Positions 7,072-8,718 of a DNA stretch of 50,455 bases are shown here, piece after piece. The notes below the pieces were generated by a model. That model was not told the origin of the DNA. It worked only from the letters and a program-made list of their open reading frames with translations, and made no database searches. The stretch is from positions 1-50,455 of the forward strand of contig VBBP01000046.1 in the NCBI GenBank assembly GCA_005884195.1, written 5' to 3'. A program made the position numbers and the translations under genes. This DNA comes from Candidatus Bathyarchaeota archaeon (GTDB lineage Archaea > Thermoproteota > Bathyarchaeia > 40CM-2-53-6). The first letter of the stretch is position 1; each line of letters begins with the position of its first letter.

Positions 7072-7104
7072 GATAAGAGTCACTTTTTGGTAGCGGGGGG
7101 TGGA

Positions 7105-7126
7105 CTTTCGGGCCCCACACGGGCCC
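7105..7126 (-). other. tRNA intron 3 (22 nt, T loop)
   Basis: It interrupts the T loop after TTCGAA. Removal restores the 7-nt loop TTCGAAT and the stem GGTGG/CCACC. The intron is mostly a GGGCCC hairpin closing a GTGTG loop. Introns at position 59/60 are known from Thermoproteales tRNAs. Confidence 0.83.
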
Positions 7127-7138
7127 TTCGAACCACCG

Positions 7139-7164
7139 CTTGAGGATCGAGTTCCTATCGATCA
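7139..7164 (-). other. tRNA intron 2 (26 nt, variable loop / T stem junction)
   Basis: It lies between AGAT of the variable loop and C-GGTGG of the T stem. The inner part, GATCGA...TCGATC, forms a 6-bp stem that extends into a bulged helix near the exons. A one-base shift of both ends is equally possible. Confidence 0.8.
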
Positions 7165-7199
7165 ATCTCAGGGTTATGAGCCCTGCGGGTTAAACCTGG

Positions 7200-7243
7200 C
7201 TAAGCGACCCGTTCCGGTCATTTGTTTAACCGGAGTCGAGTCT
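7200..7243 (-). other. tRNA intron 1 (44 nt, D loop)
   Basis: This sequence separates GGGGTAG of exon 1 from CCAGG of exon 2. TAG occurs at both edges, so the cut can slide by up to 3 nt. The intron folds as a hairpin with TCCGGT (7231-7226 region) pairing with ACCGGA, as expected for a substrate of the archaeal splicing endonuclease. It interrupts the D loop, just before G18-G19. Confidence 0.85.
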
Positions 7244-7284
7244 CTACCCCACCCCGCTACAAGAGCGAAGCCGCCTCTGGCGAG

Positions 7285-7292
7285 TTTTAAAA
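7285..7292 (-). promoter_or_regulatory. TATA box of the initiator tRNA gene
   Basis: TTTTAAAA lies with its near edge 27 nt upstream of the tRNA 5' end on the minus strand, the right distance for an archaeal TATA box. It shows the tRNA has its own promoter and need not depend on tiaS read-through. Confidence 0.7.
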
Positions 7293-7335: not shown

Positions 7336-8718
7336 TCATGAAGACGCAACTGAAATTGAAACTAGCGACTCAAGTGTCTGACCGATGCTAGCCTCGCTGG
7401 TTTCGAAGAAAGTTGGGCGGTGGATTCTATCTCTGGAAGCCGGCTTGGTCAGATGTCGATGGGCTCTGGGCGGCGGACGATAGACTCCTAACGAAATTTT
7501 TCGATGATCTGTCGTCTGGACCCGTGATGTCTTCGAAAGGTGGGTTTTGCACTTTTTGCATCTTAATCCTTGACCCTTTCCCATAGATTCACACCGAGAT
7601 CCGCAACGAGAACAACGAGGGTTCTCCCACCGAAAAACATCAACTAATGCAGTCACCTCCAGTTTTTCCACGTTCAGAGTCAACTCTCCAGGGGGCCGAG
7701 ACCGGATTCCACCCGAAATAGTAACCGAGTCTCCAAGGGTTAACTGAAAAGCCGTTTCGCGAACAGATCCTGTTGCATTGTAGGCTGCGCAGTCAACCGA
7801 GCCTGTCTCGTCACTTGTTCTGAAAATCACGTGGCCTCCGCGAAGTATCCGAGGCGCATCGCTGACTCTTCCAACAACCACTGTGGACTGGTAGGGTTGA
7901 AGTGCGTCGATTGTTCTGTGACAACCTAGATGAGCGTCTGTTCCTTGGTTCGTTTTGAATATCATGGTTCTTTCGATTGGCTCGCCAACGGTGATTTGAC
8001 CGAAAGCTCGTGCGACGCTGGCAGGGTCCTCTCCTCGGACTCCAAACAGAACAGGATCGGGGCCGTGAGGACAAATGAGTACCCTGCCCGTTTCAGGGTC
8101 GACGTTGTTGAAAGTTAAGCCGCGAAACATTGCGTCCATTCGACGAACTGAGTCATGATTCACCCTCCTCGTCGTCCCGATGTTTTCTGGTGTCCGGTAT
8201 GCAATAATCTCGAAGGTATGATCGCCGCTGAAGTCTGCTCCGACGCTTGCTAGAGCTCCGACGAGTCCTCGGGACCCTTTTAGCAAGTGGGTTTCCACGC
8301 CTACTGCATCCGCGATGTGTCGCGCTTCTCTAACTGAGAGAATATCGTGCAGTGCTCTGATGGAAAACTCGACCAATTGACTTGGTGTCCGACCCTTGAG
8401 GAATACCACAGATGGATCTGTTGATCGCTGGCTAAGATCGCTAGTCCGTTCGACGACTGCAACTGCAATTTTCTTCACTTCCTGCAGTTGCTCCTCTTCG
8501 AGACTAAAGTGAAGTGAGAGGGCTCCATTTCCTCGTGTTTTCCAAGGAACGTTAGGATTGAGCCGGACCAGCCAGGGAAAGTCGACAGGTTTGAATCCTT
8601 TGGATACTAGCTCTTGGAAGAGAAGCGCGGCAGTGTATGTGGTGCATCCTCCGAGTCTTGAATCGGTGTCGTCGATTCCGATGTGAAACTCAGTTTGCAC
8701 TGGGAGCAATGTCTCCAA
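7336..8718 (-). CDS. tiaS: tRNA(Ile2) 2-agmatinylcytidine synthetase TiaS
   Basis: TiaS attaches agmatine to C34 of tRNA-Ile2 (anticodon CAU) with ATP, so that the tRNA reads AUA and not AUG. The 460-residue length fits the family. The N-terminus has the signature FHIGIDDTDSRLGGCTTYTA, followed by PWLVRLNPNVPWKTRGNGA. The middle holds the kinase-like domain. Then comes an OB-fold (RILRGGHVIFRTSDETGSVD) and a C-terminal zinc ribbon, with CSRCGSRC and CKKC. The neighbour downstream on the same strand is an initiator tRNA that also carries a CAU anticodon, which TiaS must not modify. Start ATG 8718 is 32 nt after the RAM-domain gene ends, so both may be co-transcribed. Confidence 0.93.
   Translation of the reverse strand: METLLPVQTEFHIGIDDTDSRLGGCTTYTAALLFQELVSKGFKPVDFPWLVRLNPNVPWKTRGNGALSLHFSLEEEQLQEVKKIAVAVVERTSDLSQRSTDPSVVFLKGRTPSQLVEFSIRALHDILSVREARHIADAVGVETHLLKGSRGLVGALASVGADFSGDHTFEIIAYRTPENIGTTRRVNHDSVRRMDAMFRGLTFNNVDPETGRVLICPHGPDPVLFGVRGEDPASVARAFGQITVGEPIERTMIFKTNQGTDAHLGCHRTIDALQPYQSTVVVGRVSDAPRILRGGHVIFRTSDETGSVDCAAYNATGSVRETAFQLTLGDSVTISGGIRSRPPGELTLNVEKLEVTALVDVFRWENPRCSRCGSRCESMGKGQGLRCKKCKTHLSKTSRVQTTDHRKISLGVYRPPPRAHRHLTKPASRDRIHRPTFFETSEASIGQTLESLVSISVASS

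Follow-up and report, generated by a model that had tools for sequence, protein, structure and literature searches.

An initiator tRNA-Met gene with three predicted introns in a bathyarchaeon

A locus on the minus strand of the window (the whole 50,455-nucleotide stretch of DNA from a Candidatus Bathyarchaeota archaeon that was analysed here) raises the question of whether an initiator tRNA-Met gene interrupted at three sites can be a working gene, as three introns must come out before any protein synthesis can start in this bathyarchaeon. We put at about 93% the probability that this is a functional, single-copy gene, with its three introns cut by an (αβ)2 endonuclease and its exons joined by the RtcB ligase. 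A TATA-type promoter would give rise to a precursor of ~170 nt, in which the introns would form bulge-helix-bulge (BHB) junctions; a heterotetrameric (αβ)2 endonuclease of the crenarchaeal, broad-specificity type would cut these, and RtcB would ligate the exons. The introns would have been added, across the family, to a gene that most sampled Bathyarchaeia carry without introns. The V- and T-loop introns would be stable; the D-loop intron would turn over and is probably a new gain in this species. Multi-intron tRNA genes are a known class in archaea, and this gene belongs to it; for its lineage we found no report: a literature search on tRNA introns in Bathyarchaeota, with subscription papers mostly outside its reach, returned no direct account, and Bathyarchaeia are unmentioned in the tRNAscan-SE 2.0 paper (PMC8450103).

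The gene extends from A1 (7258) to A73 (7091), and its four exons follow one another in normal order on a single strand over 168 nt, which rules out a split or permuted gene. Exon 1 (AGCGGGGTGGGGTAG, 7244..7258, tRNA positions 1–15) and exon 2 (CCAGGTTTAACCCGCAGGGCTCATAACCCTGAGAT, 7165..7199, positions 16–47), the latter holding the anticodon arm CAGGG-CTCATAA-CCCTG, are the same in all 18 family genomes. Exon 3 (CGGTGGTTCGAA, 7127..7138, positions 48–59) is made up of C48, the 5' strand of the T stem (GGTGG), and TTCGAA, and differs by one base in a single genome, G013. Exon 4 (TCCACCCCCCGCTA, 7091..7104) runs from position 60 to A73 and is followed by an encoded CCA (7088..7090), which is kept in most relatives and reads CCT in some; the gene ends, exon 4, and CCA were read directly from the minus strand. 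Between the exons, and thus in cis within one tRNA gene, are intron 1 (44 nt, 7200..7243) in the D loop after G15, intron 2 (26 nt, 7139..7164) in the V loop at position 47/48, and intron 3 (22 nt, 7105..7126) in the T loop at 59/60, all on the minus strand. An earlier note on this DNA had placed the gene at 7091-7258; these coordinates are right, to which we add the strand, which had gone unstated, and the CCA at 7090..7088, just outside that interval. The intron lengths and positions it gave are correct base for base, as is its statement that there is no intron at 37/38.

Once spliced, the exons are complete, and the 79-mer (exons plus CCA) was identified by ARAGORN as tRNA-Met(cat), in agreement with the identity proposed earlier. 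The spliced tRNA is paired fully (7/7 acceptor, 4/4 D, 5/5 anticodon, and 5/5 T-stem pairs), its cloverleaf is intact, and it carries the marks of archaeal initiator tRNA-Met, namely A1-U72, three consecutive G-C pairs at the base of the anticodon stem, and a CAU anticodon. The earlier note was right on each of these three marks. In its unspliced form the gene gave no match on the raw window by ARAGORN or Rfam, relaxed thresholds included. Because common finders overlook tRNAs of this kind, the number of tRNAs counted in these genomes may be an underestimate.

Junctions were evaluated as BHB motifs in which 3-nt bulges flank a central helix of 4 bp and a cut behind the second base of each bulge leaves an exact mature tRNA. 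A scan for such junctions combined with ARAGORN gave the three introns of 44, 26, and 22 nt as the best solution. The geometry at each junction, a check that had been proposed along with the original claim, was strict in its central pairs at the V and T sites (4/4 Watson-Crick) and relaxed, with 4/4 paired, at the D site. The intron 3 junction is a strict BHB: its central helix is TTCG/CGAA, the T stem serves as its outer helix, and the outer and inner helices are of 5 bp each. At intron 2, the central helix is TGAG/CTCA, with inner and outer helices of 6 and 2 bp, respectively. The 169-nt precursor has a folding energy of -79 kcal/mol (z = -4.2 against dinucleotide shuffles), and intron 1 itself folds far below its shuffles.

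The D-loop junction is weak. Its relaxed BHB has a central helix of GGGU/GCUU, in which one pair is Watson-Crick and three of four are G-U, and an outer helix of 2 bp; an inner helix of 6 bp and a second stem complete the intron. The initial filter, which demanded at least two Watson-Crick central pairs, missed this intron, and the full tRNA emerged with a relaxed filter. The D junction is the least certain of the three, because it was found only in this way. The mostly G-U central helix could mean that the tRNA and two of its introns are real and that the 44-nt D insert is a recent, poorly spliced insertion and no working intron; the insert is species-specific, and the syntenic sister genome G013 lacks it. 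We consider this very unlikely, since an exact D loop remains after removal of the insert, the inner helix is strong, the relative G012 shares the G-U rich central helix at this site, nine relatives carry an intron at the same position, and no other initiator gene was found by its anticodon arm.

The same gene occurs in 15 of 17 congeneric genomes and in 2 of 3 genomes from other genera of the family. Its exons are identical in 17 of 18 family genomes (window genome G000 included), and all three introns are present in 10 of the 18. The introns vary in length, and V or T introns of equal length average ~89% identity; in the inner-helix stem of the V intron, both sides of pairs have changed among relatives. 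Compared with the spliced tRNA predicted at L060, a locus in another bathyarchaeal family, the spliced tRNA here differs at 1 of 79 positions. Chance is excluded because of this near-identity, the exons identical in 17 of 18 genomes, and a precursor that folds 4.2 s.d. below shuffles.

Several other observations were made on the family genomes. The sole exon change in the family (L047 in G013) replaces T by C at position 54, where the T loop begins, and also costs the T-loop intron junction one of its central pairs. Among named genomes, the central exon is matched exactly mainly in Candidatus Bathyarchaeota archaeon (isolates BA_2, BA_6, and others) and in a few cases in Crenarchaeota archaeon 13_1_40CM or archaeon 13_2_20CM; the sample names of these relatives suggest a soil origin for the window genome. 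Genome G002, labelled as belonging to the same genus, groups with G019 far from the genus in the HisRS tree and is possibly mixed or misassigned.

A TATA-like element, TTTTAAAA, preceded by GTCAAACC, was read directly on the minus strand at 7285..7292, 27–34 nt upstream of A1, and of the family members in which the locus is kept, most have an element like TTTTAAAA equally far upstream. Further upstream on the same strand is an ORF (7336..8718) that we take, by recognition of its sequence, to encode a TiaS-like tRNA(Ile2) agmatinylcytidine synthetase. This gene adjoins the tRNA, directly upstream, in 12 of 17 relatives' loci; splicing does not need it, though it is conserved beside the tRNA. 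At L037, L038, and L039 (genomes G004, G014, and G010, respectively), the initiator gene is relocated, without the TiaS neighbour and without the conserved TATA-like block.

The genome (1.92 Mb in 72 contigs, 95% complete) has one exact match to the anticodon arm GGGCTCATAACCC. The sole match with one mismatch is GGGCCCATAACCC, which has an altered loop base, and no second initiator tRNA was found by anticodon-arm search in this 95%-complete genome. The single copy lends indirect support to the predicted initiator function (aIF2 binding and use at start codons). A decaying or dead gene at this locus, with the working copy elsewhere in the genome, is extremely unlikely. Exons (near-)invariant in the family despite HisRS of only 67–97% identity to that of the window genome, intron stems that stay paired, a conserved promoter-like block, and the lack of a further anticodon-arm match in the genome all argue against decay, even though 5% of the genome is missing, three interruptions are unusual, and the gene is outside its usual neighbourhood in G004, G014, and G010. 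Two features that the earlier note had named as speaking against a working gene, another complete initiator gene and a decayed promoter, were looked for: no further copy of the anticodon arm was found in the genome, and the upstream TATA-like element is conserved.

A functional gene of this architecture was expected by the earlier note to need a broad-specificity, heterotetrameric splicing endonuclease, and the genome has candidate subunits for one. Relaxed BHBs are cut efficiently only by (αβ)2 and ε2 enzymes, for which the loop lysine is required (PMC6379350). Two PF01974 proteins are encoded in the genome. The stronger-scoring one, a predicted catalytic EndA, aligns over its length with the EndA of Aeropyrum pernix (3p1z; E = 1.6e-42). 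Its Y126, H134, and K165 fall on the catalytic Y/H/K residues of 3p1z, and its K42 is aligned with K44 of the crenarchaea-specific loop; this lysine is kept in 30 of 30 other bathyarchaeal catalytic subunits aligned. The second protein, encoded beside HisRS, resembles the structural half of the enzyme. The triad was not seen in its partial alignments, and it is weakly similar to solved subunits. The likeness to the A. pernix (αβ)2 endonuclease (PDB 3P1Z, 3AJV) lies in the triad and specificity-loop lysine, unlike the non-catalytic subunit, which is too diverged here for a clear sequence match, and assembly of the two is predicted. A gene for the RtcB ligase is also present. A permissive enzyme is not a sufficient cause, because all Bathyarchaeia examined share the loop-bearing endonuclease and only this sampled family loads its initiator tRNA so. 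The endonuclease would permit the gene architecture without explaining why this family has it.

The history of the D-loop intron was reconstructed on a single-gene (HisRS) tree with open nodes, which limits the argument. D introns of 22–25 nt occur in genera G018 and G020 and in members of both subclades of the genus, because of which an intron of this size is probably ancestral. The D intron is missing from eight family genomes scattered over the tree, which indicates repeated precise loss. The window genome, with its 44-nt D intron, groups with G013 (97% HisRS identity) and G014, both of which are without a D intron; the sites in the window and in G013 are comparable, because G013 keeps the TiaS neighbour. 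The simplest reading is that the D intron was probably newly gained at the same site in this species, and we infer gain over replacement. Transposition from another tRNA was considered as its origin and is unsupported by the intron alignments and by the search for the D-intron core: aligned with the genome's other introns, the 44-nt intron did not outscore its shuffled controls, and in related genomes its core matched only sites without a surrounding tRNA.

An alternative history, compatible with a functional gene, is that the 44-nt intron descends from the old family intron through strong divergence and a gain in length. This is possible, though we think it the less probable course of events. 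The insertion site is identical, presence is probably ancestral given the introns of the outgroup genera G018 and G020, and G013 and G014 could each represent a separate loss. However, the 44-nt intron aligns with the 22–25 nt introns at a score of 8–10, below the shuffle median of 14, whereas these introns are 74–100% alike among themselves, and the nearest relatives G013 and G014 lack a D intron.

The intron load of the genome extends beyond the initiator. Other tRNA sites were reached by T-arm patterns followed by a BHB solver and were counted if the spliced form scored as near-perfect; about a dozen sites that were ambiguous or unsolved by the automatic solver were left out of the count. 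The 18 confidently solved tRNAs carry 30 introns, and 16 of these tRNAs have introns. Three introns each occur in iMet, Asn-GTT, Ser-TGA, Lys-CTT, and Pro-GGG; two each in Gly-CCC, Thr-CGT, Ala-CGC, and Val-TAC; and one each in seven tRNAs, with Arg-GCG and Leu-CAG intronless. The Asn-GTT, Ser-TGA, Lys-CTT, and Pro-GGG genes lie at L015, L021, L100, and L109, respectively, in G000. For all tRNAs other than iMet, the boundaries are predictions made in this genome only. The earlier note had called three introns in an initiator striking. The three are there, but they are not special, as 10 of the 18 family genomes keep all of them and at least four further tRNAs of this genome are interrupted three times. 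The density is 1.67 introns per gene in a partial, score-selected set, and comparison with published values is indicative only: Pyrobaculum calidifontis has 71 introns in 46 genes, and the Thermoproteales have a mean of 0.84 per gene and a maximum of three (PMC8450103).

We are evenly divided on a broader proposal, that this bathyarchaeal family underwent a tRNA-intron expansion independent of the Thermoproteales, with a density near the reported archaeal record, and that sister species differ by precise intron loss and by new gain at one and the same site, the essential single-copy initiator gene included. The debate on tRNA-intron proliferation rests mostly on the hyperthermophilic Thermoproteales, and a family with many close genomes, in which introns can be seen to come and go at a single site, lends itself to comparative study of intron origin and loss. 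As in the Thermoproteales (Pyrobaculum, Thermofilum), there are up to three non-canonical BHB introns per tRNA, a predicted heterotetrameric endonuclease with the crenarchaea-specific loop, and a high genome-wide intron load (PMC8450103). Unlike these, the present host is a bathyarchaeon whose named relatives are largely from soil-depth samples, and in the D intron we detected no sequence in common with introns of other tRNAs, in contrast to the large-scale transposition in that order (PMC4033280). Disrupted initiators are also known from Thermofilum pendens, whose permuted tRNA-Met (59/60 junction and 37/38 intron) has the 59/60 T-loop break in common with the present gene, and from Nanoarchaeum equitans, in which the initiator is split (PMC3218864). 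The present gene differs from both in its normal exon order, its single predicted transcript, and its lack of a 37/38 break.

We surveyed initiator genes across the phylum by their uninterrupted anticodon arm, a pattern that genes with a 37/38 intron escape. Outside the family, nearly all surveyed initiator genes of Bathyarchaeia are intronless, the exceptions being L060, with two introns in the D arm, and L190, with one in the T loop. About three-quarters of those fetched from other classes are intronless as well; family f26 has mostly one intron, f57 and L253 have two, and L202 has at least three. The genes of f26, f57, L060, L190, and L253 resemble the present one in being the same gene with the same kind of BHB intron at overlapping sites, and differ in having fewer introns; the likeness is one of gene, intron kind, and site.

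Two further observations concern this survey. In none of the 17 genomes G021-G037, which belong to other families of the same order and of which many are >90% complete, does a tRNA carry the 13-base initiator anticodon arm; the one match to the arm among them, L052 in G028, is not a tRNA. The initiator gene of these genomes may be broken inside the anticodon arm. The initiator tRNA at L202 (G101:C116:700-1300, family f39) has apparently four interruptions, in the D loop (28 nt), the anticodon stem (~20 nt), the V loop (19 nt), and the T loop (17 nt). The anticodon-stem interruption has a central helix of ACCC/GGGT but leaves an A-A mismatch; if all four are true introns, the gene is above the published maximum of three per tRNA.
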